Shown here piece after piece: positions 14,319-57,446 of a stretch of DNA of 64,000 nucleotides. A program made the translations under genes and the position numbers. Every line of letters starts with the position of its first letter. The stretch's first letter is position 1. This stretch comes from Levilactobacillus wangkuiensis (GTDB taxonomy: Bacteria > Bacillota > Bacilli > Lactobacillales > Lactobacillaceae), in the NCBI RefSeq assembly GCF_016861605.1, contig NZ_BOLM01000006.1, forward strand, positions 1 through 64,000, written 5' to 3'. Under the pieces are notes generated by a model. That model saw only the letters and a program-made list of their open reading frames with translations. It searched no databases and had not been told where the DNA came from.

Positions 14319-14537
14319 ATGGGTTAAACCCATATCAGCCGCAGGGAAGGTGAAAATGAGCCCAGCCGTGGGAATTGCCTTAGTGGCGTGAGCCGCTTAG
14401 GCAATTGATACCTTTGAGACTCGCTTTTCAGAGGCTCAAAGTAAGTCCGGAGACCGCTCTTTGGCTCCAGGCGTTCGCCCACAGCGGACCGGTCTCATTT
14501 TCACCTTCCCGGAGGCGCTGGCAAAAACAGTTTAACC
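14319..14537 (+). repeat. R1: structured interspersed element, short form
   Basis: Closing stem of 17 perfect pairs (14343-14359 with 14493-14509). Outer arms GGGTTAAAC (14320-14328) and GTTTAACCC (14529-14537). Inside: CCGTGGG with CCCACAG; hairpin AATTGCCTTAG/CTTAGGCAATT; hairpin TTTGAG/CTCAAA; hairpin CCGGAG/CTCCAG-like. It ends four bases before the stop codon of the convergent phosphoribosyltransferase gene and lies between that stop and its terminator. Confidence 0.85.
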
Positions 14538-14540
14538 CGT

Positions 14541-15089
14541 TTAATCGATGGGAAACAAGGGGAGCTTGGCCAAGTACTGAATGTCCGGCCGGTCCGCCGC
14601 AGCGCCCTCAGCCAAGATGGCCATCTGGCCCACAATGGTGGCGCCCGCCCGCTTCAATAGCTCCTGGGCGGCATTCAATGAACCCCCGCTGCTAATGACA
14701 TCATCGACAATGACGACCTTCTTCGCCACCAGCCGGTCGGCATCGGTGCCATCCAGCACCAATTCCTGCGGTGCACTGGTCGTGATGGCCGTCACGGGGA
14801 CCTTGAGGGGCGCACGCATGTAATCCTTGGTGGCCTTTCGCAGAACCACGAATTGCGGGTGATCGGTCAGCCGGCTAAGCTCCTGGGCCAACGGAATGCC
14901 CTTACTCTCTAACGTGACAAAATAATCGAACTTCTTAGGCACTAACTGAGCCAATTGTTCCGCAGCATAATCGGTTAACTCGGCATCCCCTAATAGCACA
15001 AATGAGGCAATCGCTAAATCTTGACTGATGGGCACCACGGGCAACTGCCGCGTGATGGGTCCCACTTTTAATTCATATGTTTTCAACAT
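14541..15089 (-). CDS. adenine/xanthine-type phosphoribosyltransferase
   Basis: Type I PRTase converting a purine base and PRPP to a nucleotide. The PRPP-binding motif VVIVDDVISSGGS is at about residues 123-135, and FDYFVTLESKGIPLAQEL resembles adenine/xanthine PRTs. 182 aa is normal. The start lies three bases after the stop of the permease gene, so the two are translationally coupled; the permease would bring in the base that this enzyme traps. Exact base specificity cannot be told from sequence. Repeat R1 begins four bases after the stop. Confidence 0.82.
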   Translation of the reverse strand: MLKTYELKVGPITRQLPVVPISQDLAIASFVLLGDAELTDYAAEQLAQLVPKKFDYFVTLESKGIPLAQELSRLTDHPQFVVLRKATKDYMRAPLKVPVTAITTSAPQELVLDGTDADRLVAKKVVIVDDVISSGGSLNAAQELLKRAGATIVGQMAILAEGAAADRPDIQYLAKLPLFPID

Positions 15090-15092
15090 CGT

Positions 15093-16166
15093 TTAGACCC
15101 CCAGTCCAACTAGTAACAACCCTTTCAACAGGCCCCCGGTTAAGAGACCAGCAAACGGATCGGCCACGGCCGTCACCACCAAGGTAATCGCCGCCACGGT
15201 CGCGTCCTTCCCCTGCAAGGCCGTCGCCGCATCCGCCGGAAAGATCACGACGGCCCCCAAAATAAACAGGAAACCAGCAATCGAGGCGCTCGGCACGTAT
15301 TTTCCCAGTCGGGGTAACCAACCCACCGCTAGAATCGCCGCCATGATCAGCATCATCAGAATCCCGGCAATGACCGGTTCAGGCGCACTGGCCGTCGCGG
15401 AAATAATCGTTTCAACCGGCGCGCCACCAAGCAGGCTGGTTCCCATATCGGCCAACGACTGCGTAATCGTCAGCAGGTTCAGGTTGACCGGATTGGGCTT
15501 AAGCCCCGTCATCTCCCCCGTAATCAGTCCATAGGAAATGTTGGCCCCAATGTTCAGACAGGCCAGGCTCAACGCCCCACGGACCACGCGGGGATTAATC
15601 GTCGGTTTCGTAAAGACAAATCGGCGAGCCGTCACGTGTTCCGGGAGTTCGGCACGGTAATGGGTCACAAAGACGGCGGCCAAACTCGACCCGACCACGG
15701 ACAACACAATCGTCCAAACTAAGTCTTTGGTCACTAAATAGGTCACGGCGGCCAGCCCGACCGAGGTCCATCCCGTCAAGCGTTCCTGCTTAGCCATACT
15801 CAACGCAATCTTTGCCAGCATGACCCCCACACCGGCCATCATCCCCGCCATGATGCCGTTGCCTAGCAGTGCGACAATCTTGGTGAGGGTCCCGGTCACC
15901 CCAATCAGGAGCATGACCAGGGAACCCCCTAAGATAATCGACGTTCGCTCGCGTAAGTCCCTACCAAGCTTTCCCGTCAGCGCTAAGGATTCGGCCTGAA
16001 AGGATAAGGGGGCCACGGCGCCAAACGCCCCGTTGACCGCCGAAGCAAATAGAAACGAAAACATCGTCGGAAATATCGCGAAGCCTAGTGACATCGCCAT
16101 GATTCCCTGAGGAATCCCATTTAACACGACTCCGATTGCCGCCAACAGATCCGCTACCCAATGCAT
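15093..16166 (-). CDS. NCS2-family purine/xanthine permease
   Basis: Membrane carrier with about ten hydrophobic segments; family features include the AINGAFGAVAPLSFQAES-like opening region and repeated glycine-rich spans (LLGNGIMAGMMAGVGV). About 357 aa, shorter than classical NCS2 proteins (~430) but complete. The frame runs to 16184, yet GGAGGGTGG lies seven bases before the ATG at 16166, which is chosen. Operon with the PRTase downstream supports purine-base salvage. No purine riboswitch is visible upstream. Confidence 0.75.
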   Translation of the reverse strand: MHWVADLLAAIGVVLNGIPQGIMAMSLGFAIFPTMFSFLFASAVNGAFGAVAPLSFQAESLALTGKLGRDLRERTSIILGGSLVMLLIGVTGTLTKIVALLGNGIMAGMMAGVGVMLAKIALSMAKQERLTGWTSVGLAAVTYLVTKDLVWTIVLSVVGSSLAAVFVTHYRAELPEHVTARRFVFTKPTINPRVVRGALSLACLNIGANISYGLITGEMTGLKPNPVNLNLLTITQSLADMGTSLLGGAPVETIISATASAPEPVIAGILMMLIMAAILAVGWLPRLGKYVPSASIAGFLFILGAVVIFPADAATALQGKDATVAAITLVVTAVADPFAGLLTGGLLKGLLLVGLGV

Positions 16167-16322
16167 CAGATGTCCACCCTCCACGGTTTCCTTGTTTGCT
16201 CTTCATTCTTCGTTTTCTTTCTACAGAATACGTTAATCAAACGAAATTGTCCACCTATTTTTCTGATTTTACGAACATTTGATATAAATACCGTTGTTAT
16301 TTTCGTGTATATTTCAGGGAAT

Positions 16323-16356
16323 AAAAAAGTGCGACCCACCATTCGTTGAGTCGCAC
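16323..16356 (-). terminator. terminator after the 16370-17050 gene
   Basis: Minus strand GTGCGAC...GTCGCAC followed by TTTTTT. Confidence 0.82.
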
Positions 16357-16369
16357 AACCATTATTGCG

Positions 16370-17050
16370 TTAAGAATTTTTCAACTGCCGTTCCTCCACC
16401 GCAACTCGCAACAACCGCCACGAATCCGGTAACTGCAACGTCTCCAGCTGGCCATGCGCCAACGCCACCGCCTCCTGCACAAGTTGGCCCGCATGCGTGT
16501 CACAACCTGCTGGGGCGTAGGCATCGTACTGGCGATTCTGCGTGAGCAGTTGGGTCAGGAGTTTTCGCAAAATCGTGACCCCCGCCGGTAGGAGCAGTTG
16601 ATGCGCCGTCACGCCGATCTCTTGTAACCAGCACTGCGCCTGACTGGCGATTCCCGCCAACCTGGCTGGCGTTGCTGGACCACCCGACTGTTGGACCACG
16701 ACCAGCCCGACCAACGCGCCCATTGTCGCCAACACCGTGGCATGACTCACCTGAGTCAGGTCCAGCAATAGGTAATTGGCGACGGTCGGTTGCCACGCTG
16801 GCGGCGAAACTGGTAGTGCCGCTAACAGCTGATTGCCGAGACGGCCGTAGACGGAGCGCCCCAATTTTTCAATCAATTCTTCCAACGACACCTGGGGGAC
16901 GATGGTGAGCTCGTCGGTTGCTGTATCCTGCAGTAACAGGTCGCGCGGCTCCGGTCCCAATAGCGCAGCCAGGCTGGCACTAGGGTCAATCGACCATGGT
17001 AACCGCGGCACAAAGTCCGCCCCCGCAGACTGAACATTAAATTGTCTCAC
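16370..17050 (-). CDS. uncharacterised protein
   Basis: No family recognised. About 226 aa, no signal peptide, two moderately hydrophobic stretches (TVLATMGALVGLVVVQ near the middle is the strongest) and a Leu/Gln-rich C-terminal half. AGGAGGGG stands seven bases before a GTG at 17050; an upstream in-frame GTG overlaps that ribosome site and is rejected. It has its own terminator and is divergent from the MerR gene. It could be an enzyme subunit or regulator; nothing in the sequence decides. Confidence 0.6.
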   Translation of the reverse strand: MRQFNVQSAGADFVPRLPWSIDPSASLAALLGPEPRDLLLQDTATDELTIVPQVSLEELIEKLGRSVYGRLGNQLLAALPVSPPAWQPTVANYLLLDLTQVSHATVLATMGALVGLVVVQQSGGPATPARLAGIASQAQCWLQEIGVTAHQLLLPAGVTILRKLLTQLLTQNRQYDAYAPAGCDTHAGQLVQEAVALAHGQLETLQLPDSWRLLRVAVEERQLKNS

Positions 17051-17143
17051 ACCATCACCCCTCCTCACCTACCAGCAGTGTACCCCCTTCGACCTACTTG
17101 AAGGCAACCCCTTTGTGCCTAAATTTTAAATCGAGGCAAACGC

Positions 17144-17172
17144 TTGCGCAAACGTCAGCAAACGTGTATGAT
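17144..17172 (+). promoter_or_regulatory. promoter of the MerR gene with CAAACG repeats
   Basis: TTGCGC (17144-17149), 17 bases, TATGAT (17167-17172). Three CAAACG copies at 17137, 17149 and 17159 overlap it and may bind a regulator. Confidence 0.6.
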
Positions 17173-17225
17173 TGAAAACATTGCTTAGAGTTAGTCGAAC
17201 GCGAACCTTTTGAGGAGGGACCCAG

Positions 17226-17648
17226 ATGTCTTATACCATCCACGAAGTTGCTCAGAAACTGGGCATTTCAACCTATAGTATTCGCTATTACCACGATCAC
17301 GGCATGTTGCCCAACGTCAAACGGGACGCCAACAACAACCGCGTGTTTAACGACGTCGACTTGGAAGGGTTACATATCATCCTGTGCTTACGCGGGACGG
17401 GGATGCCCGTCGAACGAATTCAGCACTACCTCGATCTCGTCCAACAAGGGGAATGCACCGTGCCTGAACGCTACGAAATGATGCAAGCGCAACAGGAACG
17501 GACGCTCCGCGAAATCGCTGACCTTAAGAACCATCTGTCGACCATCAACTTCAAGGTTGATCACTACGCAGAAATTATGAAGACTCACCAGCCCGATAGT
17601 TTTGTGCCCGCAAGTATGCGCGACACGGCCACCAACCAAACGGCTTAA
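17226..17648 (+). CDS. MerR-family transcriptional regulator
   Basis: Winged-helix regulator: YTIHEVAQKLGISTYSIRYY at the N-terminus, RVFNDVDLEGL wing, then a long dimerisation helix. 140 aa, without a metal-binding cysteine pair at the C-terminus, so it belongs with the AdhR/NmlR-like or multidrug group rather than the mercury sensors. A terminator separates it from the MFS gene downstream, so the regulatory link to that exporter is only by neighbourhood. Confidence 0.85.
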   Translation: MSYTIHEVAQKLGISTYSIRYYHDHGMLPNVKRDANNNRVFNDVDLEGLHIILCLRGTGMPVERIQHYLDLVQQGECTVPERYEMMQAQQERTLREIADLKNHLSTINFKVDHYAEIMKTHQPDSFVPASMRDTATNQTA

Positions 17649-17698
17649 ACTTGACCGGCTCCCACTAGCATTAACCACAGTTTCATCAACCAAATCAG

Positions 17699-17732
17699 CC
17701 ATCTCTCACCGTTGTGTGCGAGGTGGTTTTTT
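17699..17732 (+). terminator. terminator of the MerR gene
   Basis: CCATCTCTCAC pairs with GTGCGAGGTGG (G-U pairs allowed), followed by TTTTTT. Confidence 0.7.
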
Positions 17733-17826
17733 GTTGAGTCAACTTTCTTGCACCCCCTTAACCAATATGCTACGCTTAACCACCTGTGAGCCATTTATTA
17801 AATATTTTATGAGGGGGGTCCGCTCC

Positions 17827-19104
17827 TTGGAAACCACACACTTGCCGCACTGGCGGCGCAACATCTATCTCTTCTTAACCAGTCAGTTCCTGTCGGGAAT
17901 CACCAGCATGGTGGTCCAGTACGCCATCATCTGGTACTTGACCAAGCAAACGGGCTCGGCAACGGTCCTCAGCCTGGCGACGCTGCTGGGGATGCTCCCG
18001 ATGGTGCTCCTCAGTCCTTTCGTGGGGCCATTCGTTGACCGTCTCAACAAGAAGGCCCTGCTGATTGTCCCAGACATCGTGGCCGCCATCTTCGCCATTA
18101 TTTTATCGATTGCCGGTACGCTCCAGTCGACCTTTCCCCTGTGGCTGATTTTCATTTCGCTACTGGTCCGGTCGATTGCGCAGACCTTTCAGATGCCAAC
18201 GATTCAGTCGATTCTGCCGACCATGGTGCCGACCGATGAGCTCACGCGCATCAACGGGCAGCTGGGGATGGTCCAGTCGGCCAACATGATTATTTCACCG
18301 GCGCTGGGCGCATTTCTCTTTGCCATCGTCCCCATGAATTTCTTAATTTTAATCGATGTGCTGGGCGCCATCATTGGGATTAGCCTGTTGACGTTCGTGC
18401 GGATTCCCGAGCATCCCGTGATTGACGAAAAGGTTCACGTTCTGGCCGATGCCAAATTTGGGCTGATGAAGCTCCGCAACACGCGGGGTCTCTGGGCTAT
18501 CACCATGATTGGTGCGGCCTTCACGCTGATGTTCATGCCCGCCGCCAGCCTGTACCCGCTGATGACCATGGGCTACTTCCACGGCACGGTCGGCCAGGCT
18601 GGCCTGATCGAAGTCATTTACTCTGTCGGCATGCTCGCCGGGGGCGCCATCATTGGCCTCTTTGGTAATTGGCGCGACCGGATGAAACCCATCTTCTGGG
18701 CGACCGTCGCCATGGGCGTGACCTTCGGCGGTAGCGGCTTTCTGCCGGGCAACCAAACCGGCTTCGTCTGGTTCGTGGTCTTAAACGCCTTAGCCGGTGC
18801 CATGACGCCGTTCTATAGCACCCTGTTGATGGCGATGATCCAACAGAGTTTCCCCGCCGACCAACTCGGCCGCGTGCTGGGCGTGCTCAACTCCTTGACC
18901 AGTGTTGCTGGCCCAGTCGGCCTGATATTTGCGGGTCCCCTGGCCGACAGCCTTGGCGTCGAAAAACTGTTTATCATCGGCGGCCTCGGCTCCCTAATCT
19001 GTGGTCTCGCCATGTGGCTGTTGCCGAGCGCTCGCGCTTACGACCAACAGTTACAGGCGCGCCTAGCAACTGAGGCGTTAGCTCAACCCGATTTAGACGA
19101 TTAA
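17827..19104 (+). CDS. MFS efflux transporter (MFS_3/EntS-like)
   Basis: Twelve-span exporter of drug or siderophore type; LTSQFLSGITSMVVQYAIIW is the typical first span and PFVGPFVDRLNKK the loop 2-3 motif. The open frame starts far upstream at 17602, overlapping the MerR gene and its terminator. A run GAGGGGGG at 17811-17818 stands eight bases before TTG at 17827 (reading LETTHLPHWRRN), so TTG is taken as start, giving 425 aa, the usual length. Confidence 0.82.
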   Translation: METTHLPHWRRNIYLFLTSQFLSGITSMVVQYAIIWYLTKQTGSATVLSLATLLGMLPMVLLSPFVGPFVDRLNKKALLIVPDIVAAIFAIILSIAGTLQSTFPLWLIFISLLVRSIAQTFQMPTIQSILPTMVPTDELTRINGQLGMVQSANMIISPALGAFLFAIVPMNFLILIDVLGAIIGISLLTFVRIPEHPVIDEKVHVLADAKFGLMKLRNTRGLWAITMIGAAFTLMFMPAASLYPLMTMGYFHGTVGQAGLIEVIYSVGMLAGGAIIGLFGNWRDRMKPIFWATVAMGVTFGGSGFLPGNQTGFVWFVVLNALAGAMTPFYSTLLMAMIQQSFPADQLGRVLGVLNSLTSVAGPVGLIFAGPLADSLGVEKLFIIGGLGSLICGLAMWLLPSARAYDQQLQARLATEALAQPDLDD

Positions 19105-19109
19105 TCCTA

Positions 19110-19139
19110 AGGACCTGTTTCCGGACAGGTCCTTTTTTA
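19110..19139 (+). terminator. terminator of the MFS gene
   Basis: AGGACCTGT-TTCCGG-ACAGGTCCT followed by TTTTTT. Confidence 0.88.
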
Positions 19140-19140
19140 C

Positions 19141-19185
19141 TTGACTTACTGAATGAATTAAATTAATATTCATTCAGTAAGTCAA
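19141..19185. promoter_or_regulatory. TetR operator 1 (autoregulatory palindrome)
   Basis: Perfect 18-bp inverted repeat (19141-19158 with 19168-19185, nine-base centre) just before the TetR gene. Its core TGAATGAAT-N9-ATTCATTCA recurs at 19797-19823. Confidence 0.82.
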
Positions 19186-19201
19186 GGAGGTCGCTTAATC
19201 T

Positions 19202-19768
19202 ATGGATGACAAACAGCAACGCCTATTCACTGCCGCTCGGGACTTGTTCCTAGCACAGGGCTTCAAGGCCACTAGTATCGCGGATATCGCGGCCAAAGCG
19301 GATGTCGCGGTCGGGACCTTTTACAATTTCTATCAATCTAAAACAGCCATCTTTATCACCGTCTATAACCAAGAAAATGAGTGGATCAAGCAGGCTATCA
19401 TTAGCCAAATTGACCTGACGGCGGACCCCGCAACGGTCGTCCAAGCTGTTCTCCAACAAATCTTCACCCAATCCACTAACAATCGCATTCTCCAGGAATG
19501 GTTTAGCAACCCCAAGCTCAACGCGATTATCGCTAAGACCAACCAGGACATTGCCGCCGATAGCGTGGTCTACGCGACCCTCATGGTGCTGATCACCGAC
19601 TGGCAACAGCGCGGCTTACTCGCGCCCGGCATGACCCAGGACCGAATTCTCAGCCTGTTCAACGCCCTCACCGTGGTTGATTTTCACCAGAGTGAAGTCC
19701 AAACGGCCGACTATTTCCAACTGGTCAGCGACCTGATCACCGGTATTCTTCATGTCATTCTAAAATAG
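19202..19768 (+). CDS. TetR-family repressor
   Basis: N-terminal helix-turn-helix (FKATSIADIAAKADVAVGTF, then YNFYQSK), 188 aa, ligand domain variable. GGAGG precedes the ATG. Two copies of the same spaced palindrome, one before this gene and one before the DUF4097-like gene downstream, indicate autoregulation and control of that neighbour. Confidence 0.88.
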   Translation: MDDKQQRLFTAARDLFLAQGFKATSIADIAAKADVAVGTFYNFYQSKTAIFITVYNQENEWIKQAIISQIDLTADPATVVQAVLQQIFTQSTNNRILQEWFSNPKLNAIIAKTNQDIAADSVVYATLMVLITDWQQRGLLAPGMTQDRILSLFNALTVVDFHQSEVQTADYFQLVSDLITGILHVILK

Positions 19769-19796
19769 CCACAACGGTTATTTTTTTCAATCAAAA

Positions 19797-19823
19797 TGAA
19801 TGAATTAAAAATATATTCATTCA
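19797..19823. promoter_or_regulatory. TetR operator 2
   Basis: TGAATGAAT (19797-19805), nine bases, ATTCATTCA (19815-19823): same half-sites and spacing as operator 1, immediately before the 19839 gene. Confidence 0.8.
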
Positions 19824-19838
19824 AAAAAGGAGCCCATT

Positions 19839-20531
19839 ATGAAAAAAATTCTACTTACTTTGTTAGTTCTCATCATTGTCCTTGTCTTAATCCTAGGCGG
19901 CTTAGTTCTCTGGACCACCAGTACCAACCGGCGTTTCACCGTCAATTCATTGACCACCACGCCACTCACGACTAAATCCGTTGACCTAGACACGGTCCCC
20001 AAGAACCTGACGCTCACCCTCCGGACCGCCAAATTGATTATTAAACCCGGACAACAGAATCGTCTGACTCTTAGTAATGTCGCCACCAACCAGTACGTCA
20101 TCTCGACGACCAACAATCAGCTAGACGTTAAAGAGTCTAACTTGTCCAGCCATCCCTTTGAAATTGGTCACTCGCCCGTCTTAATACTCAACCTAACCGA
20201 CGCCCACGTGTTGCGGAATTTAACCATCGACCAATTCAACGGCACGCTCAAGTTGAACGACCTTACCACCCAGCACCTCAAAATCCATCACCACAATGGC
20301 ACAACCATCGCGCACCACCTAACCGTCACGGCCGGTGGCACGCTGGTCAAGGATAATGGCAGTACCACCCTCAACCAGCTGTCCAGTGACGGTCTCCAGG
20401 TCGCCTTTAAGACCGGTCAAGTCCACGTGAACGGCAAAAAAGCCGCCCACAACAGCCACCACTACACCCAAGCGGGCCAGCATCCCCTGACCATCACCAG
20501 CGGGTCGGGCCAGGTCCGCATCACAAACTAA
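19839..20531 (+). CDS. membrane-anchored DUF4097-like beta-repeat protein
   Basis: One N-terminal membrane segment (residues 4-26, LLTLLVLIIVLVLILGGLVL) followed by about 200 extracellular residues rich in Thr, Asn, Leu and His with a repeating pattern suggestive of a right-handed beta-helix (ANLTIDQFNG-like turns). This fits the DUF4097/DUF4098 family often found with envelope-stress or PadR/TetR regulators. Controlled by TetR operator 2, so it is probably induced when the TetR ligand is present. Function unknown. Confidence 0.7.
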   Translation: MKKILLTLLVLIIVLVLILGGLVLWTTSTNRRFTVNSLTTTPLTTKSVDLDTVPKNLTLTLRTAKLIIKPGQQNRLTLSNVATNQYVISTTNNQLDVKESNLSSHPFEIGHSPVLILNLTDAHVLRNLTIDQFNGTLKLNDLTTQHLKIHHHNGTTIAHHLTVTAGGTLVKDNGSTTLNQLSSDGLQVAFKTGQVHVNGKKAAHNSHHYTQAGQHPLTITSGSGQVRITN

Positions 20532-23470: not shown

Positions 23471-23750
23471 GGGGTTAAACCCATGTCAGCCGCAGGGCTG
23501 GGAAAAATGAGCCAGTCGTGGAAGTGACCAGAGGCGAGCCAAGATGCCCGGCTGTGTCGATGGCCTTGGCTGGGGTACTTTCTCAGCCTAGCCCATGGGG
23601 CAACCTTTGAGACCGCCCTTTGGCTCAAAGTTGAGGTGGAAGCCCGCTTCTCAGGCTGGAACCGACCCCACAGCAGGGTATCTTGAGCGCGCCGCCGAGA
23701 ACGAACGCGACCAGGCTCAGTTTTCACCGAAGTCAACATCAGTCTAACCC
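23471..23750 (+). repeat. R2: structured interspersed element, long form
   Basis: Begins GGGTTAAACCC and ends GTCTAACCC. Shares the CAGCCGCAGGG entry, CTTTGAG-loop-CTCAAAG hairpin and CCCCACAGC block with all copies, but has the longer middle (GTGACCAGAGGCG) of the R2/R3/R5/R6 subtype. Its last bases overlap the stop codon (23744-23746) of the CDF gene. Confidence 0.82.
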
Positions 23751-26855: not shown

Positions 26856-27169
26856 ATGGGCTAAACCAGTGTCCGCCGCCGTAGGGATGGCGGAAATTGT
26901 GCCATTCACATGCCAAGTTGAGTGACCAGAGGCGGATCAAAATGACCAGCTGTGTCGGTGGTCTTAGCTGAGTGCCTTATTCTCAGCTTAGAGCACGGGG
27001 CGACCTTTGAGACCGCATCTCAGGCTCAAAGTCGAGGTGGAAGACTGCTCTTTAGTCTGGAACCGACCCCACAGCAGGGCGTTTTGAATCCGCCGTCGGG
27101 AACGGGAACGCTCAGCCGCGGTTCAATTTCCGCCACCCGGAGTCCATGACAACGACCAGTTTAACCCGC
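26856..27169 (+). repeat. R3: structured interspersed element, long form
   Basis: Closing stem GGATGGCGGAAATTG (26885-26899) with CAATTTCCGCCA (27124-27135). Other copies have GGTGAAAATG/CATTTTCACC here, so both arms changed together. Ends GTTTAACCCG. Placed between the divergent lipoprotein and alcohol dehydrogenase genes. Confidence 0.82.
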
Positions 27170-37484: not shown

Positions 37485-37596
37485 TAACGCTTCTATATCT
37501 ATAGCTAAGTTAACGGTTGCTAGAAAATAATTTCAGAAGACTACCCCTCGAATAAGTGAGTGGCGCTCGCCTAAATTAGCCAGACCAACTTGATGG

Positions 37597-37820
37597 CGGG
37601 CTAAACCCGTGTCAGCCGCAGGGATGGTGAAAATGGACCAAGCCGTGGGAGTTGCCTTAGCGGGTTCCCCGCTTAGGCAACTGCTATCTTTGAGACGCGT
37701 TTCTCAGCGGCTCAAAGTAAGTCTGGAGACCGCCCTTTGGCTCCAGACGCGCGCCCACAGCGTCACGGCCCATTTTCACCATCCCGGAGGCGATGTCAAA
37801 AACAAGTTTCCCCCGCCAAT
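37597..37820 (+). repeat. R4: structured interspersed element, short form
   Basis: Closing stem of 16 perfect pairs (37621-37636 with 37770-37785). Hairpins: TTGCCTTAGCGG/CCGCTTAGGCAA, TTTGAG/CTCAAA and CTGGAG/CTCCAG; inner stem GTGGG/CCCAC, extended by CCGTG/CACGG. Outer arms GGCGGG-CT-AAAC and GTTT-CC-CCCGCC. Lies between the MFS stop (37826) and its terminator. Confidence 0.87.
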
Positions 37821-37825
37821 TCAAG

Positions 37826-39010
37826 CTAGTCGGTGGCTAATTTTTGCGGCTCGCCAATCACGAAGTGGCCCGCCACCGCAATAACCAGGAACACCAAAGC
37901 CACCAAGCAAACGCCCAGCCAGCCGGCGTGACTCCACGCCCAGGTGGCGGACAAGGTCCCAATCGACCCGCCCAAGAAATAGCTAAACATGAAGACGGAA
38001 TTGTTCCGACTACTCTGTTGGCGATTCAACGACTGCACGATGGCCTGGCAGGACACCTGACTGAACTGGGTTCCCAAGTCGAGGAGAACGATGCCCACGA
38101 TGAGCCCCAGTAGCCAGTGGCCAGCCAGCCAAAAGATCAGGAAGGCGACGCCGGAGAAGACCATCCCTAGGCCCACCGTCAACCGGGGTGACCGCTGATC
38201 GACCAGCGTGCCAATCATGGGCGCGGCCAACACCCCCGCGATTCCTAGCAGGCCAAGCAATCCGGCCACGCTACTGCCCAGGTGATACTGCGCAGCGAGG
38301 TAAAAGGCTAGCGTGGACCACAGGACGTTGGACATGCCAAACAGGCAAAAACCATTAATGGCCGCACCGCGTAACGGCTTTTGACTCACAAATAACTTGG
38401 GTAGCGTGCGAATGACCGGCCAGTATTTCAAATCCTGATGACCCCGTTCGTCGTGGGGCAACTGAAAATGCACGATGACCAGGAAAACCAGATCAATGGC
38501 CGCCGCTACCAGGTAGATGTCCTGCCAGGGCATGATGCTCCCTAGCAATCCGCTAAAGGACCGCGACAGGAGAATCCCCGTCAACAGGCCACTCAAGACG
38601 ATGCCTAAAACTTTCCCCCGTTGAAGTCCCGGCGCCAAGTACCCGGCATACGGGATGATGATCTGGGGCGCCACTGAGGTGATGCCGACCAGCCCCGTGG
38701 CAATCGCAAAAACGCCGGCATTTGGCGCCCAATGCGCTAATAATAAGGAAAGAATGGATAACACCATCATGAATTGAATCAACCGATACCGGTCGAAAAT
38801 GTCACCCAGTGGCACAATCAGTAATAGGCCAAAGGCATACCCCAGCTGCGTGACCATCGCCAGCATGCCGACGACTGCCTTGGACAGGTTGAAGTCCGCC
38901 GCAATTAGATTTTCAATCGGTTGAATGAAGTTCAGGTTGGCCACAATGACCCCCGTCACGACTGCCATCAACAAGATGGTCTTTTTTGACAACTTTGCTT
39001 GCTCTTTCAC
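37826..39010 (-). CDS. MFS transporter (drug/arabinose-efflux type)
   Basis: 394 aa, twelve spans; opening TGVIVANLNFIQPIENLIAA and MVTQLGYAFGLLLIVPLGDI are typical of the CynX/YceJ-like DHA efflux group. Start is GTG at 39010 after AGGAGG. A symmetric AAAAGTTT-A-AAACTTTT palindrome upstream probably binds an unlinked regulator. Substrate unknown. Confidence 0.83.
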   Translation of the reverse strand: MKEQAKLSKKTILLMAVVTGVIVANLNFIQPIENLIAADFNLSKAVVGMLAMVTQLGYAFGLLLIVPLGDIFDRYRLIQFMMVLSILSLLLAHWAPNAGVFAIATGLVGITSVAPQIIIPYAGYLAPGLQRGKVLGIVLSGLLTGILLSRSFSGLLGSIMPWQDIYLVAAAIDLVFLVIVHFQLPHDERGHQDLKYWPVIRTLPKLFVSQKPLRGAAINGFCLFGMSNVLWSTLAFYLAAQYHLGSSVAGLLGLLGIAGVLAAPMIGTLVDQRSPRLTVGLGMVFSGVAFLIFWLAGHWLLGLIVGIVLLDLGTQFSQVSCQAIVQSLNRQQSSRNNSVFMFSYFLGGSIGTLSATWAWSHAGWLGVCLVALVFLVIAVAGHFVIGEPQKLATD

Positions 39011-40726: not shown

Positions 40727-40749
40727 CCCCTGGCATTTCCAGCAGACCG

Positions 40750-40833
40750 ACCACTTTCCTACGCGAGTCTTAGCTCAACAGGTTCAAAGGGATTGGCACG
40801 TGTCCATCTCAGCCGACTGGCACCCCTAGTGTC
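40750..40833 (-). promoter_or_regulatory. TPP riboswitch (THI box)
   Basis: Minus strand shows CACTAGGGGTGCC, GGCTGAGATGG, CCCTTTGAACCTG, GAGCTAAGACTCGCGTAGGAAAGTGG in the conserved order (the last quoted in pieces: GAGCTAAGAC, TCGCGTAGGAAAGTGG). TPP binding would stop transcription of thiW at the terminator downstream. Confidence 0.93.
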
Positions 40834-40968
40834 TTTTTCAGTTAATCCCGACTATACCGGGTGTGAAATTTAAAAGCAACTCATAATATGCTGGACTGAT
40901 TGAACGTTAATTGAATTATCTCTCACATCAAACGACAGACTGGTATACTAGGCAGTGGAGGGGATTAT

Positions 40969-42282: not shown

Positions 42283-42513
42283 TTCCAAACCCGTGTCAGC
42301 CGCAGGGCTGGGAAAACTGGACCGGTCGTGGGAGTGACCAGAGGCGTGCCAAGGTGCCCGGCTGTGGCGATGGTCTTGGCTGGAGTCTTTTCCCAGCCTA
42401 GCCCATGGGACAACCTTTGAGACCGCTCCTCAGGCTCAAAGTTGAGGTGGAAGCCCGCTCCTCGGCTGGAACCGACCCCACAGCAGGGCATCTTGAATCC
42501 GTGCTCAGTCTAA
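42283..42513 (+). repeat. R5: truncated long-form element
   Basis: Starts with AAACCCGTGTCAGCCGCAGGG and carries the CTTTGAG/CTCAAAG hairpin and CCCCACAGC block, but the 3' closing arm (expected CAGTTTTCCCAGCCC) is missing; the outer end TCTAACC follows directly. Confidence 0.8.
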
Positions 42514-42611: not shown

Positions 42612-42925
42612 AGTTTGTTCTAAAGCAGTGTCAGCCGCAGGACTGGTGAAAATGGACCAAGCGTGGTCAGTCTCAGTGACCAGAGGCGGATCAAGGTGAC
42701 CAGCTGTGTCGATGGACTTGGCTGGGGTTCTTTCCCAGCCTAGTTCCATGGGACAACCTTTGAGACCGCCCTCAGGCTCAAAGTTGAGGTGGAAGCCCGC
42801 TTCTCAGGCTGGAACCGGCCCCACAGCAGGGCACCTTGAATCCGCCGCCGGGAACGACAACTGCCCACAGCGACCAGGCCCAGTTTTCACCAGCCCGGAG
42901 GCGCCAGAAACGCCTGTTTAGAACT
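42612..42925 (+). repeat. R6: structured interspersed element, long form
   Basis: Closing stem GGACTGGTGAAAATGG near 42640 with CCAGTTTTCACCAGCCC near 42879-42895. Outer arms GTTCTAAA (42617-42624) and TTTAGAAC (42918-42925) are exactly complementary, and the right arm contains the stop codon and last codons of the response regulator gene. Confidence 0.85.
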
Positions 42926-51442: not shown

Positions 51443-51542
51443 GGCAGAATATTCCTGGAATAATATTAGGAATTTCCCTAATATATGTGAAAGTGCTTAC
51501 ATGGTAAGCTAGACCCATCAAATGCATTAACCTGCTCTTGGT

Positions 51543-51766
51543 GTCTGGGTCAAAGTCTTTTAGCAGCGCCTCCGGGCTGGTGAAAATGGGCCGTGACGCT
51601 GTGGGCGCCCGTCCGGAGCCAAGAGGCGGTCTCCGAACTTACTTTGAGCCGCTGAGAACCGCGTCTCAAAGATAGCAATTGCCTAAGCGGCTAACGCCAC
51701 TAAGGCAATTCCCACGGCTGAGCCCATTTTCACCAGCCCTGCGGCTAAGACTAGTTTGGCCCGTCA
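51543..51766 (-). repeat. R7: structured interspersed element, short form, inverted
   Basis: Same element read on the minus strand. Closing stem GGGCTGGTGAAAATGGG (51574-51590) with CCCATTTTCACCAGCCC (51723-51739), 17 perfect pairs. Hairpins AATTGCCTTAG/CTAAGCGG-type, GAGAC..CTCAAAG and CCGGAG/CTCCG are present. Lies in the suf-feo gap. Confidence 0.83.
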
Positions 51767-52008
51767 CCAAGGCGGTTTCTGCAGTTGATGGGTAGCTGAC
51801 CATTCCATTGGTTGGCCGTGTTCCTTCCTCTATCACTTAACTATTATTCCGGCTGTGCGCTTCTATCACATAATTTGATGGCAGCTTAACCATCGCGCAG
51901 CTGGTTACTTAAATGATGAAAAACATAAGCTTGCTGATTAAACCTGTCTCACCTATATGATTGCGGCAGAACCGGAAAAACAGTGGCAAACAAATGACAC
52001 GCAACCCG
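51767..52008. other. suf-feo intergenic stretch between R7 and R8
   Basis: 242 bases without a gene. Probable location of the feo promoter, but no clear -35/-10 pair or Fur/DtxR box was recognised. Confidence 0.3.
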
Positions 52009-52220
52009 GTGCTGGTTAAACCAGTGTTAGCCGCAGGCAGGGTGAAAATGGCTTCAGCCGTGGGAATGTTCTTAGCCGCGCTCTTTGCGGGTTAGAACAT
52101 TGGTGTCTTTGAAACTCGCCCCTCAGAGGTTCAAAGCATCCCAGAGACCGCTCTTCGGCTCTGGGTGTCCGCCCACAGCGTTCCGAGCCAGCTTCAGCTT
52201 GTTGAAGGCGAAATCACTGG
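52009..52220 (+). repeat. R8: structured interspersed element, decayed 3' arm
   Basis: Starts CGGTGCTGGTTAAACCAGTG like R9. Hairpins AATGTTCTTAG/CTAGAACATT-type, CTTTGAAAC/GGTTCAAAG and CCAGAG/CTCTGG are intact; the 3' closing arm is replaced by CTTCAGCTTGTTGAAG. Confidence 0.8.
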
Positions 52221-52231
52221 CACACCAGTAT

Positions 52232-52470
52232 CAACCCGGTGCTGGTTAAACCAGTGTCAGCCGCAGGCAGGGTGAAAATGAGCTCAGCCGTGGGAGTTGC
52301 CTTAGCGGTTTACCGCTTAGGCAACTGATATCTTTGAGACTCGTACCTTGAGGCTCAAAGTAAGCCTGGATACCGCTCCCCAGGCTTCACGCGCTCGCCC
52401 ACAGCGTCACGGCTCAGTTTTCACCCTGCCGGAGGCGAAACCAACGACAATATTTAACCAGCAAAACCCG
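52232..52470 (+). repeat. R9: structured interspersed element, short form
   Basis: Direct repeat of R8. Closing stem 52266-52283 with 52412-52430; outer arms GCTGGTTAAA (52241-52250) with TTTAACCAGC (52453-52462). Ends 33 bases before the feoA start, so it may be in the feo 5' leader. Confidence 0.85.
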
Positions 52471-52502
52471 TTTAAAGACTTAATTTGAAAGGCCTGATGA
52501 TA

Positions 52503-52730
52503 ATGCAACTCCGTTATTCAGAATCAGCCTATCCAATCGTAACTGTCGAACAGATGGCGACCCTTGATGGCCAGACCGCTCACCGACTACATAACCTCGG
52601 CATTCACCCTGGCAGCCAGCTGACCGTGCTCCGGCAATATCCGTTTCACGGCCCCGTCATCGTTGAATTCGATCAGCAGAAAGTTGGGATTCGCTACGTT
52701 GTTTTCGAAGCACTCTTAGGGGGGCACTAG
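52503..52730 (+). CDS. feoA: ferrous iron transport protein FeoA
   Basis: 75 aa SH3-like cytoplasmic protein: HRLHNLGIHPGSQLTVLRQYP. GAAAGG lies ten bases before the ATG at 52503; the frame extends six codons upstream. Partner of FeoB, one base upstream of it. Confidence 0.93.
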   Translation: MQLRYSESAYPIVTVEQMATLDGQTAHRLHNLGIHPGSQLTVLRQYPFHGPVIVEFDQQKVGIRYVVFEALLGGH

Positions 52731-52731
52731 C

Positions 52732-54720
52732 ATGACAACCGTTGCCCTCTTAGGAAATCCAAATACTGGCAAGACCACGCTATTTAACGAACTGACCGAT
52801 AAATATGCCTACGTTGGTAATTGGGAAGGGGTCACCGTTGATAAGAAGATGGGAAAGATTCGCCACTCTGAAATGGTGGTGGTCGACCTCCCCGGCATCT
52901 ATTCCCTCACGCCAATCACCAAGGACGAGGCCGTCGCCTGCAACTATTTGCTAAACGACTCGCCCGACATGATTTTAAACGTCACCAACGCCAGTCAGCT
53001 GAAACGCAACCTGCTGCTCTCCATTGAGCTGTTGGAGTTCGGCCGCCCGGTGGTGCTCGCCTTAAACATGATTGATGATTTGAAAGCAAACGGGGTCACC
53101 TACGACTTCGACGAGCTGGCGAAACGCTTGGGCTGTCAGGTCCGCGCTACCAACGCTCGGAAGAAATCGGGGCTGGACCAACTCCGCCAAGAACTGTTGG
53201 CCACGCCGCCGGAAACGACCGCGCCGCTACACTTGGCCTATCCCGCCGCGGTTCAGGACGCCATCGCCACGGCCACCCAACAGCTGGTCGCCGACTATCA
53301 ACTGACGCCGACCTTTGCCAACTGGCTGGCCATTCAGTTCATGAACCGTAACCAAATCGTCCGCCGCTACGCCAGCAAGCACCAACTCAAGCCACTCCTG
53401 ACGCAACAGGACGCCTATGATAAACAGGACTTTGAGGAACAAATATTTCAAACGCGACTGGCCTTCATTGATGAAACGCTGACGGCCACGACCAAGTATC
53501 TACACGAGGTCTCCAACGCCAATTTGACGGCGAAGATTGACCGCATCGTTACCCATCCCCTGTTGGGGCTCCCCATTTTCGTGGGTATATTCCTGTTAAT
53601 GTTCAAGCTGTCCTTCGACTGGATTGGAACGCCACTGTCGGACGTGATGGACGCCTTTATCTCCGGGCCACTGTCCGCGACCGCCAGTCACTTTCTGACC
53701 AGCGTTGGGGCGATGCCCTTTCTGAAATCCCTAATCGTTGACGGCATCATCGCCGGCGTTGGGGGCGTGCTCAGCTTCATTCCCCAAATTTTCGTGTTGT
53801 TCGCGTGCATTTCCATTCTGGAAGATTCTGGGTACATGGCCCGCGCCGCGCTGGTGACCGACCGGCTGATGCAACTGATTGGGCTCAACGGTAAGGCCTT
53901 CATTCCGCTGATTATCGGCTTCGGCTGTAATGTCACGGGCATCATGGCCGCGCGCACGATTGAGCAACCCAAGGAACGGCTGGTCACCACGCTGATTTCG
54001 CCGTTTATGAGTTGCTCGGCCCGGCTCCCCATCTATGGGCTGTTCGTCGCCGCCTTCTTCGACCGGAACCAGGCGCTAATCGTGCTCTCCCTCTATTTCC
54101 TGGGGATTGCGCTGGCGCTGTTCATGGCCAAGATTTATCAGTGGGTGTTCAAAGTTAAAGAAAATTCCGTCTTCATTATTGAATTGCCCAAGTACCACAT
54201 GCCCCGGCCGGACATCATCGCCATGGGCACCTGGGAAAAGGGCAAGGGCTTCATCCGCAAGGCCGGCACCGTCATCTTTGGCGGGACCGTGCTCATCTGG
54301 CTGCTGTCCAACCTGGGACCGGCCGGCGTGGTGACCAACATCGACCAGAGTTTCTCCGCCATGATTGGCCGCTTCGTCCTGCCCGTCTTTGCCCCAATCG
54401 GCATCACCTCGTGGCAAACAATCAGCGCGCTCATGACTGGAATCCTGGCCAAGGAAGTCATCAGTTCCAGCATGATTGTGCTCTTTCATTTGAGTGGTCA
54501 AACCGGTTTGATCGCCACCTTCAGTTCCCTGTTCACCCCGTTGTCTGCCTACGCCGTCCTGGTCTTCATTCTGATTTACGCGCCCTGTTTCGCCACCTTG
54601 GCAACAATCAAGGCCGAAACCAATTCGACCAAGTGGGCCGTTTATTCCGTGGTCTCCAACACGGTGATTGCCTACCTGGTTGCGATGATCATCTTCCAGG
54701 TCGGGTCGCTATTCATTTAA
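52732..54720 (+). CDS. feoB: ferrous iron transporter FeoB
   Basis: 662 aa membrane Fe(II) importer. N-terminal GTPase: G1 GNPNTGKTT, G3 DLPGIYSL, G4 NMID; helical linker, then about eight to ten spans with GFGCNVTGIMAAR and MSCSARLPIY cysteine motifs. Full length. Supplies iron near the suf Fe-S genes. Confidence 0.96.
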   Translation: MTTVALLGNPNTGKTTLFNELTDKYAYVGNWEGVTVDKKMGKIRHSEMVVVDLPGIYSLTPITKDEAVACNYLLNDSPDMILNVTNASQLKRNLLLSIELLEFGRPVVLALNMIDDLKANGVTYDFDELAKRLGCQVRATNARKKSGLDQLRQELLATPPETTAPLHLAYPAAVQDAIATATQQLVADYQLTPTFANWLAIQFMNRNQIVRRYASKHQLKPLLTQQDAYDKQDFEEQIFQTRLAFIDETLTATTKYLHEVSNANLTAKIDRIVTHPLLGLPIFVGIFLLMFKLSFDWIGTPLSDVMDAFISGPLSATASHFLTSVGAMPFLKSLIVDGIIAGVGGVLSFIPQIFVLFACISILEDSGYMARAALVTDRLMQLIGLNGKAFIPLIIGFGCNVTGIMAARTIEQPKERLVTTLISPFMSCSARLPIYGLFVAAFFDRNQALIVLSLYFLGIALALFMAKIYQWVFKVKENSVFIIELPKYHMPRPDIIAMGTWEKGKGFIRKAGTVIFGGTVLIWLLSNLGPAGVVTNIDQSFSAMIGRFVLPVFAPIGITSWQTISALMTGILAKEVISSSMIVLFHLSGQTGLIATFSSLFTPLSAYAVLVFILIYAPCFATLATIKAETNSTKWAVYSVVSNTVIAYLVAMIIFQVGSLFI

Positions 54721-54736
54721 AAAGGAGCGCTTGTCC

Positions 54737-54907
54737 ATGTCAATCCTGATTAATAGCGTTATCGTCATTGCCATCATTGGTGGCGCCGGGTTCGTGTTGT
54801 ACCGGCATTTGAAAAAGTCCAGCCAGGGCAGCTGCCCCGCGTGCGAGTACGATTGCCCCGCCAAACAACAACTGAAAAAGCACCAAGCCGAAAAACACAT
54901 GTCGTAA
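54737..54907 (+). CDS. FeoB-associated Cys-rich membrane protein
   Basis: 56 aa: one N-terminal span (ILINSVIVIAIIGGAGFVL) then a short cytoplasmic tail with three cysteines (SCPACEYDCPAKQQ). Matches the FeoB-associated small protein family in Firmicutes in position, length and pattern. AAAGGAG precedes the ATG; 16 bases after feoB. Confidence 0.88.
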   Translation: MSILINSVIVIAIIGGAGFVLYRHLKKSSQGSCPACEYDCPAKQQLKKHQAEKHMS

Positions 54908-55096
54908 TACGCTCCGCCGGCGGACGACCGGTGCTCCCAGCCTATGGGGACCGCCCGAAGCCAGAGAAACGGTCTTCGCGCTCGCGCTAGAGCCTCAAAG
55001 TACGGAGTCTCCAGCACGTCCAGTGGCGTAAGCCGACCCAAAACGTCGACAAACGCCACGAACACAGGCTTCCGCACCGGTCGCCCGCCAGCTACG
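54908..55096 (+). repeat. R14: divergent structured element after feo
   Basis: Closing stem GGCGGACGACCGGTGC (54917-54932) with GCACCGGTCGCCCGCC (55073-55088), 16 pairs with one G-U. Inside, GAGCCTCAAAGTACGGAG resembles the CTCAAAGTAAGTCTGGAG block of R1/R4, and GGCG..CGCC hairpins follow. Begins right after the stop of the small Cys-rich gene and lies before the operon terminator. Confidence 0.6.
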
Positions 55097-55192
55097 CTAA
55101 CCCTAGTTTTTCGGTTGTGCCTTTTCATCGTTGGTGGTCAGTGCATTTGTGTTACTGTTATCATCACTTAATTTGTCTTCCTCCAAATAGTT

Positions 55193-55237
55193 ATAGGTCG
55201 TGATTCCTAATCAAATGGAATTACGACCTATTTTTTT
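55193..55237 (+). terminator. feo operon terminator
   Basis: ATAGGTCGTGATTCC (55193-55207) with GGAATTACGACCTAT (55217-55231), then T6. Confidence 0.88.
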
Positions 55238-55264
55238 AATTATCTCCTGTGTGTAAGCGTTTCA

Positions 55265-55455
55265 AATCAAAAAATCGGCAATTTTTCAATAAACAGCTAT
55301 GGTTTGACCCATATAAATCAAAAAATCCGCCTTTTTTCAATAAACAGCTACGGCTAGACCAATATAAATCAAAAAATCCGTCCTTTTTCAATAAACAGCT
55401 ACAGTTAGACCCGCGTAAACCAAAATCAACCGTTTTTCCATTAATGCTACGATTA
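55265..55455. repeat. 51-bp tandem repeat, three copies plus a degenerate fourth
   Basis: Units start at 55265, 55316, 55367 and 55418. Each contains AATCAAAAAATC, a TTTTTTCAATAAACAGCTA block and TAGACC. A6/T6 tracts in each unit can pair. The period is 17 codons and both strands stay open, but the predicted peptides are low-complexity and I see no gene. Confidence 0.85.
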
Positions 55456-55492
55456 ACCTGATACCCTATTTGACGACATTCTCCCAGACAGC

Positions 55493-55535
55493 AAAAGGTC
55501 GTGACCCCTAATTTTAGGGAATCACGACCTTTTCT
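55493..55535. terminator. bidirectional terminator after repeat R10
   Basis: AAAAGGTCGTGA with TCACGACCTTTT, inner CCCTAA/TTAGGG. On the minus strand it follows the GT8 gene and R10. Confidence 0.75.
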
Positions 55536-55613
55536 GTTAGTAATCAACATTCACGTAAAGTTTCTGTTCACACAATCAGCCTAGAAAACTGCCGAACTAG
55601 CAAACACTTTGCG

Positions 55614-55821
55614 ACCGGGCTAAATCCACGTCAGCCGCAGAGATGGTGAAAATGAGTTCAGCCGTGGGAGTGGTCTTAGCGGTTTCACCGCTTAGACCAC
55701 TGATATCTTTGAGACGTGACCTTCGGCTCAAAGTAAGCCTGGAGACCGCTCCTTGGCTCCAGGCGTGCGCCCACAGCGTCACGACTCATTTTCACCATCT
55801 CGGAGGCGACTATTTAGCCTC
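55614..55821 (+). repeat. R10: structured interspersed element, short form
   Basis: Closing stem GAGATGGTGAAAATGAG (55640-55656) with its exact complement (55785-55801). Hairpin GTGGTCTTAGCGG/CCGCTTAGACCAC. Outer arms GGCTAAAT (55618-55625) with ATTTAGCC (55812-55819); the right arm includes the GT8 stop codon. Confidence 0.87.
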
Positions 55822-56656
55822 GACCATTTAGCCGTTGGAGCTGCTGCTGGTAATTCAGGAATAAGCCGGTAAACTTACCGTCGCTGGCCGGGTCCCACGG
55901 CTTGGGCGTCCCGCAGTAATGCAGAATCACCGTATTGGCCATGACCCAGTGAATCTCGTGCTGATTCAGGCTGCGCGTCTGGTACATCAGGTATTTACGC
56001 GTGTCGTAGTTCCAGATTTCTTCGGAAATTTCCAAAATGTCTGGCCCATACAGGAAGTTCAAAATATCCTGATCCGGTAAAATTAGCTCGCTTTCATATT
56101 TTTCAATTGTTTGCGTGATGTCGCTCAGCTTAATTTTGGCCCGCGCTTGGTCCAAATCAATGACCAGCACACCCGAGTTGAAATAACTGGTCGTCGTGCC
56201 CAGCCGCAACTGATTGACGCTGTCCATGAGATTGGTCACGCCGCGGTGAACGGCCGCCGCTAACATGTGACCCGCTAAATCTAGCGTCCATAATGGCCGT
56301 AAATTGTTAATCACCAACAGGTCCGGGTCCAAATAGATGACCCGCTTCACTGATTTCGGCAAAATCTGACCGCTCAAAAGGCGGAAATACATTTCCCGCG
56401 GATAACGTTTGATCAAGGGCACCCCGGCCGTAAAGTCCGCCGTCACCCGTTCGGCGCTCAGCTCCCAGCCAAACGCCGTGGTCAGCTGCCGCACAGACGC
56501 CACCTCGTCAGGCGTCAGACTGGCATGCACCAACCACAAATGCATGCGCTCCCCAGGATTATTGGCGTGCGCCGAAAACAACATGACCTTTAAAGGCTCC
56601 AAGTATCCTGAATTGAGTGTGACCAGCAAATTAATTTCATCAGACAAAGCTTCCAC
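55814..56656 (-). CDS. glycosyltransferase family 8
   Basis: 280 aa. DxD in IYLDPDLLVINNL, YFNSGVLVIDL, DQDILNFLYG and the C-terminal HYCGTPKPW are GT8 hallmarks (LPS/teichoic-acid type galactosyl- or glucosyltransferases). A GTG start follows GGAAG. Acts on cell-wall glycans or glycolipids. No wall-synthesis genes adjoin it. Confidence 0.9.
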   Translation of the reverse strand: MEALSDEINLLVTLNSGYLEPLKVMLFSAHANNPGERMHLWLVHASLTPDEVASVRQLTTAFGWELSAERVTADFTAGVPLIKRYPREMYFRLLSGQILPKSVKRVIYLDPDLLVINNLRPLWTLDLAGHMLAAAVHRGVTNLMDSVNQLRLGTTTSYFNSGVLVIDLDQARAKIKLSDITQTIEKYESELILPDQDILNFLYGPDILEISEEIWNYDTRKYLMYQTRSLNQHEIHWVMANTVILHYCGTPKPWDPASDGKFTGLFLNYQQQLQRLNGRG

Positions 56657-56794
56657 CGACTTCCGTTTGATTTGGTTGATTCTATCTCCATTAAATCACG
56701 TTTACTGTCTATTTTTGATTCCGACGACTTACAAGTTACACGACAATCTGTGGTCGTAACTTATGACGCATAATTTTGCTCGGAACCCACCCAC
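56657..56794. other. upstream region of the GT8 gene
   Basis: 138 bases, presumably holding the GT8 promoter; no clear element recognised. Confidence 0.3.
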
Positions 56795-57020
56795 CACACC
56801 CGTGGCATAACTTGGGTTACGCGCCCTAACACAACCAAGCCGAGAGGGCGGTGAAAATGGGTTCAGCCATGGGAATTCTCTTAGTGGCGCTCTTTGCCGC
56901 TTAGAGAATTGGTGTCTTTGAAACTCGCTTCTCAGAGGTTCAAAGCATCCCGGAGACCGCCCTTCGGCTCCGGGTGTCCGCCCATAGCGTTCCGACCCAT
57001 TTTCACCGCCCAGCAGACCC
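56795..57020 (+). repeat. R11: structured interspersed element, short form
   Basis: Closing stem GGGCGGTGAAAATGGG (56846-56861) with CCCATTTTCACCGCCC (56996-57011). Inner stem is CATGGG/CCCATAG, changed on both sides from the usual GTGGG/CCCAC. Hairpins GAATTCTCTTAG/CTTAGAGAATT, CTTTGAAAC/GGTTCAAAG, CCGGAG/CTCCGG. Confidence 0.87.
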
Positions 57021-57058
57021 CCAACCATCAATACCCATGGCAAAATTGTGTTTGGGAC

Positions 57059-57215
57059 TCGATCCATCCCAGCCGTGAGGGCGACAAAAAATGGGTTCAG
57101 CCGTGGGATTTACTGAGCGGTCAGCTCAGTAAATGGCGACTTTGAAACTCGGGCTGTGAGGTTCAAAGCGAGGTCGAAGACCGCTCCTCTCCTGCTACCC
57201 AATTTTACAAAACCA
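57059..57215 (+). repeat. R12: truncated structured element
   Basis: Keeps ATTTACTGAGC/GCTCAGTAAAT and CTTTGAAAC/GGTTCAAAG hairpins and AAAAATGGGT/ACCCAATTTT closing pairs, but lacks the CCCACAG part. Confidence 0.72.
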
Positions 57216-57217
57216 AC

Positions 57218-57446
57218 ACCCACCACACCCGTGGCATGACTTGGGTTACGCGACCTAACACAACCAAGCCGAGAGGGCGGTGAAAATGGGTTCAGCCATG
57301 GGAATTCCCTTAGTGGCGCTCTTTGCCGCTTAGAGAATTGGTGTCTTTGAAACTCGCTTCCAAGAGGTTCAAAGCATCCCGGAGACCGCCTTTTGGCTCC
57401 GGGTGTCCGCCCATAGCGTTCCGACCCATTTTCACCGCCCGGCAGG
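57218..57446 (+). repeat. R13: structured interspersed element, near-identical to R11
   Basis: Differs from R11 at about ten positions, mostly in hairpin loops. Closing stem 57275-57290 with 57425-57440, perfect. Confidence 0.87.

Follow-up and report, generated by a model that had tools for sequence, protein, structure and literature searches.

A 64,000-nucleotide window of Levilactobacillus wangkuiensis (positions 1 to 64,000 of contig NZ_BOLM01000006.1, assembly GCF_016861605.1) carries multiple copies of an elaborately structured repeat. An initial annotation, drawn from the letters of this stretch, had described thirteen copies of a five-helix element whose base pairs are kept while its bases change, and had read this as selection on an RNA or cruciform DNA, with no named family known to have this fold. 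Here, we define the copies in the window, assess the covariation, strand and distribution of their fold, present evidence that the family is mobile, and weigh what its conserved interior may be doing.

A covariance model built from 58 copies (seven Levilactobacillus genomes) and run on the window returned 16 rows, comprising 14 places and the opposite strands of two strong copies. All thirteen copies first described were recovered, and a fourteenth was added at 54908-55098 (copy 10, - strand, 66 bits, E 2.8e-14). Eight copies are of full length and of a form that we term type A, scoring 158-192 bits: copies 1 (14337-14517, +, 179.9 bits), 4 (37614-37792, +, 191.3 bits), 7 (51567-51746, -, 191.7 bits), 8 (52029-52210, +, 158.2 bits), 9 (52259-52437, +, 168 bits), 11 (55633-55808, +, 185.9 bits), 12 (56838-57019, +, 183.6 bits) and 14 (57267-57448, +, 181.4 bits). 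Four longer copies, type B, reach 39-50 bits under this model: copies 2 (23475-23739, +, 38.9 bits), 3 (26861-27166, +, 50.2 bits) and 6 (42620-42923, +, 43.7 bits), whose ends were taken from a profile alignment, and copy 5 (42286-42501, +, 40.5 bits), which lacks the 3' part and covers profile positions 3-219 of 295. Copy 13 (57071-57216, +, 53.5 bits) is partial. Type B has the P1 ends and P4 in common with type A and differs in its interior, so the single fold first proposed for all copies holds as a common architecture and not in its details. Copies 12 and 14 lie in a tandem duplication at 56788-57445 (229 nt, 97% alike, 429 nt apart) that surrounds copy 13, and copies 10 and 11 are divergent partners in one intergenic region.

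The fold runs from the closing stem P1 through P2 to P3, with P4 and P5 behind a short extra helix. In the alignment of the 58 copies the paired share of cells is 97.6%, and both sides change in 41 of the 55 pairs; two-sided changes number 507 cells against a shuffle mean of 129, with none of 500 shuffles reaching 507, and sliding one side of a stem by 1-3 columns lowers pairing to 34-51%. For covariation we used a G-test with average product correction, with substitutions reshuffled on the tree as a phylogeny-preserving null (own script, exponential tail, 40 and 30 null alignments). This yielded 8 pairs at E<0.05 from 72 copies, 7 of them inside the structure, and 13 from 86 copies, 12 of them inside (P1 4, P3 3, P4 2, P5 3). 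P2 is nearly invariant and has no significant pair, only 3 of its 7 pairs changing on both sides, in 5 cells; the compensatory changes initially claimed for every helix are therefore significant in P1, P3, P4 and P5. The one significant pair outside the structure joins columns 79 and 153 (81 and 153 in the first alignment, judged to be the identical pair), with G-C 59, C-G 14, A-T 7 and A-G 4 among the counts shown, and suggests the short extra helix behind P3 that would enclose P4 and P5. GAGAC...GGCTC, judged by eye, is mostly common to these two hairpins. Pairing, two-sided changes and covariation beyond the tree null all agree, supporting the original proposal that selection acts on structure.

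One copy folded 7.8 standard deviations below dinucleotide shuffles and its opposite strand reached a z of -6.2; as both strands fold well, folding energy does not decide between them. Wobble pairs are more informative. Read on the + strand, G.T outnumbers A.C by 121 to 20 summed over P2-P5 in 72 copies (P1 64:28, P2 38:2, P3 36:7, P4 15:6, P5 32:5; the cells are not independent), and by 103 to 35 in copies from a second family of the order Lactobacillales, described below. Such an excess on one strand points to a folded state that is one single strand, either RNA or single-stranded DNA, and not a symmetric cruciform, so that RNA (or single-stranded DNA) is the favoured form of the two first suggested.

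No Rfam 15 family matched the window copies at its gathering cut-off, the sole match in the window being a thiamine pyrophosphate (TPP) riboswitch elsewhere, at 40739-40837 (-). Nine loci from other genomes likewise gave no match on the element, and an A copy and a B copy scanned permissively gave chance-level matches only; the lack of a known RNA family, anticipated at the outset, thus extends beyond the window. Matches off the element in the outside loci were tRNAs and rli28, a Listeria small-RNA family found at L074:1478-1651 (-) in another Lactobacillaceae genome (53 bits against a cut-off of 45).

The element is abundant in its host genus. The window genome (3.14 Mb) and L. brevis each hold at least 150 matches, every one of the 150 candidates scored per genome reaching E 2e-23 or lower, and 33 of 35 genomes of the genus match, the window genome included. 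Within Lactobacillaceae, a scan limited to at most 8 candidates per genome under strict filters found matches in 90 of 301 genomes and 13 of 40 sampled genera. Order-wide, 16 of 295 genomes match, including four that belong to a single other family (E 5e-5 to 6e-4), and in a phylum-wide draw the only match among 299 genomes was the window genome itself. A model built from six copies in four genomes of the second family matched 11 of 18 genomes of that family, with 3-70 copies each. Applied to 28 Levilactobacillus sources it gave 92 matches at E up to 1, and each of the top 20 (E 1.2e-6 to 1.6e-4) falls on a known copy, on the matching strand; on this ground we treat the Lactobacillaceae and second-family elements as one superfamily. 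The elements are non-coding and about 180-300 nt long, those of the second family about 168 nt. Two species of one genus (L185 and L187) carry a single copy at the same place, flanked by two terminators and located between genes for an ABC-2 transporter and Ldh. Copies also occur downstream of feoB in several genera, where copy density is too high to be telling.

Comparison of sites between species reveals mobility. Among 34 conserved gene pairs compared between the window genome and L. brevis, 9 are occupied only in the former, 3 only in the latter, none in both and 22 in neither, so that none of the 12 sites that hold a copy in one species holds one in the other. At the gene pair of copy 1, where a terminator-like hairpin lies upstream of the copy in the window (14184-14239, ends approximate), L. 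brevis also has such a hairpin but lacks the element. The stretch holding copies 7-9 (51514-52482, by eye, ends approximate) is missing upstream of feoA in L. brevis and L. suantsaiihabitans. The window genome also has copies whose flanks are unrelated although the copies themselves are 96-97% identical over 189-208 nt. The FeoB of the window genome is 99% identical to its counterparts in L. lanxiensis and L. mulengensis. In the closer relative L. lanxiensis (~94% identical), all 13 sites matched by reading along the aligned stretch of the contig are shared, but the copies differ in number and type. The site at 51567-51746 has a type A interior in the window and in L. cerevisiae and a type B one in L. 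lanxiensis and L. mulengensis, while P1 and the flanks are retained; the 55633-55808 site is type B in L. mulengensis, and a third interior swap lies at contig position 93826. These swaps with kept flanks look like recombination between copies. In another genus (G336), five units of a B-like and an A copy, arranged head to head 22-40 nt apart, occur at different sites.

The second family shows how copies end. In one of its genomes, G024, copies 95-97.5% identical over ~282 nt lie at different sites and have sharp ends with imperfect terminal inverted repeats of 24 nt (19 of 24 positions agree). Eight copies are flanked by an 8-bp direct duplication, exact in 6 (one a run of A), exact with a shift of one base in 1 and agreeing at 6 of 8 bases in 1; crossing the flanks of different copies gave a mean of 3.0 of 8, with at least 7 in 3 of 56. 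The Levilactobacillus ends carry just a short weak repeat, GGGYTAAAC / GTTTARCCC. For 71 copies of this genus, the short flank pairs better with its own partner than with 95% of others in 41-44%, falling to 21% when the first 20 nt are excluded, as if the element had entered a palindrome; over 250-nt flanks, 3 of 106 exceed the 99% control, a measure disturbed by neighbouring copies. Many Levilactobacillus copies, for example at 37560-37850, have locus-specific inverted-repeat flanks of up to ~50 nt, some of which extend into the end of the adjacent gene. There seems to be a common core with two integration habits, one by direct duplication and one into palindromes.

From these site differences, with the terminal repeats and 8-bp duplications of the second family, the element is, on the sequence evidence, a dispersed mobile repeat. 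Its copies are short, non-coding, numerous and dispersed, their sites are empty in relatives, and in G024 they have terminal inverted repeats and a target-site duplication, the anatomy of a miniature inverted-repeat transposable element (MITE). We consider it likely, at roughly 70%, that the family consists of non-autonomous DNA transposons of the Lactobacillales whose spread depends on the conserved interior fold. A transposase supplied from elsewhere, acting in trans, would recognise the ends of the element, and presumably the same chemistry would serve in Levilactobacillus. Insertions would fall between genes, often where A/T tracts adjoin terminator hairpins, and in Levilactobacillus rather inside palindromes. 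Copies would then recombine among themselves, exchanging A and B interiors while P1 and flanks stay. The fold itself would be selected mainly through the multiplication of copies, either because a folded strand of RNA or single-stranded DNA is needed for spread or because it makes a copy tolerable. The ISL3 family makes 8-bp target duplications and has ends beginning GG, both of which fit the G024 copies; this may hint at the kind of enzyme.

Several observations weigh against this interpretation. No direct target duplication was found in the Levilactobacillus copies examined, where the flanks are inverted repeats instead. In other Lactobacillaceae genera G.T exceeds A.C by merely 81 to 66, in alignments fitted to the model. 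Nine unswapped sites differ from L. lanxiensis by 4.3% (85/1971), and divergence between the two genomes is 13.4% and 8.3% in the 60-nt flanks, 7.1% in other intergenic DNA and 15.8% at fourfold sites; unswapped copies thus diverge less than their surroundings, which suggests a function in place. With swapped copies included, all aligned element positions differ by 7.5%. No parent insertion sequence or mobiliser was found, in a search that did not take in whole host genomes, and four of five element queries had no match in plasmids and phages. The fifth had a single match, a fragment covering 23% of the query that lies close to insertion sequences on an L. plantarum plasmid. The collection holds at least 547 plasmids of Lactiplantibacillus; since its Levilactobacillus plasmids were not counted, absence from plasmids is weak evidence. 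The G024 end met no autonomous parent with matching ends in plasmids and only three chance matches, with no element there, in phage-like contigs. As for a gene-bearing parent in low-copy genomes, ten scanned neighbour proteins of seven loci were all ordinary, and a 5'-end-like sequence lacking the element (L209:5834) has neighbours that are ordinary genes by translation. The initial annotation had left room for membership of a known insertion-sequence family, and that holds by half: the anatomy is that of a MITE, and no parent was found.

How copies sit among genes bears on the strongest competing explanation. We catalogued 182 copies in 798 kb of eight Levilactobacillus genomes, mostly copy-bearing stretches, with our own gene caller. 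Overlap with a predicted gene never exceeds 50 nt. Apart from 16 copies at stretch ends, the catalogue divides among the four gene arrangements as 44, 44, 42 and 36. For 105 full copies, coding sequence was present at 80 nt upstream in none, and a convergent gene was reached at 40 nt downstream in 34%. Neighbouring copies less than 600 nt apart are divergent in 32 cases, tandem in 29 and convergent in none (26, 3 and 0 in other genera), and none of 111 copy-bearing intergenic regions has a right-facing copy left of a left-facing one, so that copies face outward. Central terminator-like hairpins occur between convergent genes in 8/26 (+) and 6/26 (-), against 6/333 (+) in shuffled centres; with ++ genes they occur in 4/29 (+) and 3/29 (-), with -- genes in 4/32 (+) and 12/32 (-), and between divergent genes in 0/24 (+) and 1/24 (-). 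In the second family, 31 of 37 copies face a gene end, 6 a gene start and none lies between divergent genes; among 16 copies, 6 have a terminator whose end lies no more than 25 nt ahead of the 5' end, compared with 20 of 320 shuffled flanks. The 150 scored matches in L. brevis show no clear replication-strand bias, with 43 on the + and 27 on the - strand in the first half of the sequence and 38 and 42, respectively, in the second; the origin was not located.

The elements could instead be host-serving RNAs at gene borders, selected site by site with mobility secondary, and acting in transcripts that enter genes as a 5' leader structure, a barrier to antisense RNA or an aid to termination. The low divergence of shared copies, the one-strand covariation seen in the wobble bias and the unbroken outward facing all fit this explanation, as does the copy at contig position 93826, which, read by eye, is in sense orientation, with a promoter-like sequence also present in L. 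brevis on one side and the start codon on the other. Resident copies are likely constrained in place, a constraint that the comparisons do not tie to the fold itself. Of 46 single stem changes in shared copies, 15 preserve the pair, close to the 31% expected without selection, and four comparisons, in which different copies were probably aligned with each other, account for 47 of the 50 pair-keeping two-sided changes. An energy test on the shared copies (mean z -2.0, 16 values) counts reversions and is thereby biased towards a host function. None of the 12 occupied sites is shared with L. brevis, copies occur in all four gene arrangements, and 74 upstream flanks show no promoter of their own (mean best score 8.72, against 8.81 in shuffled flanks). 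We therefore regard primary selection for a host function as unlikely.

Less probable still, and quite doubtful in our judgement, is that the fold and not the DNA ends is the heritable core, with a folded RNA recruiting or guiding an enzyme in trans in the manner of a bacterial short interspersed element (SINE) or a bridge RNA. This idea draws on the second-family ends, which differ from the Levilactobacillus ends while the interior fold is common to both.

That the covariation reflects cruciform DNA, a signal read as double-stranded DNA, is very improbable: both strands of one copy fold well, but a cruciform should be symmetric and the G.T and A.C counts are not. Bacterial interspersed mosaic elements (BIMEs) are structured, multicopy and intergenic and form inverted pairs, and repetitive extragenic palindromic (REP)/BIME-like repeats moved by a Y1 (RAYT-type) transposase would look similar in these respects. 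The Y1 domain PF01797, however, has no match in the window genome or in six copy-bearing second-family genomes and is present in G021 and G042, the two Levilactobacillus genomes without element matches; its distribution does not track the element, the second-family copies have 8-bp duplications, and we give this origin hardly any credence. Equally hard to credit is a retroelement-like (SINE-like) RNA copied by reverse transcriptase, which would suit a structured, one-strand fold in many copies, because the PF00078 reverse transcriptase does not track the element, being absent from seven copy-bearing genomes (G019, G043, G001 and G007, each with 75-76 of 76 candidates matching, and G024, G397 and G377), and because terminal inverted repeats with 8-bp duplications mark a DNA transposon.

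EFAR elements of Enterococcus faecalis are ~170-bp miniature insertion sequences that use stem-loops as targets. Efa-1 of the same species is described as 163 bp long and intergenic, with 65 (18) sequences and two adjacent stem-loops (PMC2267715). Both resemble our element in their intergenic position and in length (163-~170 against ~168 nt in the second family), a likeness by description only; the five-helix interior, A/B variants and outward pairs are absent from the available part of the Efa-1 description (PMC2267715). The BOX, RUP and SPRITE repeats of Streptococcus pneumoniae are described as structured, clustered, intergenic and MITE-like, SPRITE being terminator-like (PMC10969869); they are alike as structured intergenic repeats, by description only and in another genus. 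The bcr1 repeat of the Bacillus cereus group is described as 147-167 bp long, intergenic and structured with traits of mobile elements (PMC2267715), similar in size and setting, again by description only and in another taxon. REP/BIME sequences are also intergenic and structured with inverted pairs; our element differs in lacking a Y1 transposase association, in its far larger fold and in the 8-bp duplications of the second family. By description, EFAR/Efa-1 and the pneumococcal repeats are the nearest described things. We found no description of such an element in Lactobacillaceae in the open-licence literature, subscription papers being outside the scope.

As far as Rfam 15 and the open-licence literature go, then, the family is new, and it is not a new kind of element unless its RNA acts in its own movement. 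Bacterial MITEs are usually taken to have disposable interiors; in this family no part is better kept than the interior, which shows compensatory changes in four helices and a one-strand bias and occurs in many copies. An elaborate RNA-like fold kept while its letters change is unusual for short non-coding mobile elements, and on the transposon interpretation that we prefer, why a transposon would conserve one becomes a testable question. L. brevis, a common food bacterium, is among the hosts. In these genomes the family, which Rfam 15 does not contain, makes up a good part of the intergenic DNA and can mislead searches for small RNAs, leaders and terminators.

A few further features of the window are worth recording. 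Between copies 10 and 11 there is a terminator-like hairpin at 55493-55533 (ends approximate), and the same intergenic region holds three 60-nt units at 55264-55425, spaced 51 nt apart and 82-88% alike. Five adjacent small open frames of 160-179 aa at 6759-9533 (-) have no Pfam match and are possibly paralogues. At the window edge, 67-4173 (-) encodes a 1368-aa Cas9 with five Cas9/HNH Pfam domains above cut-off.

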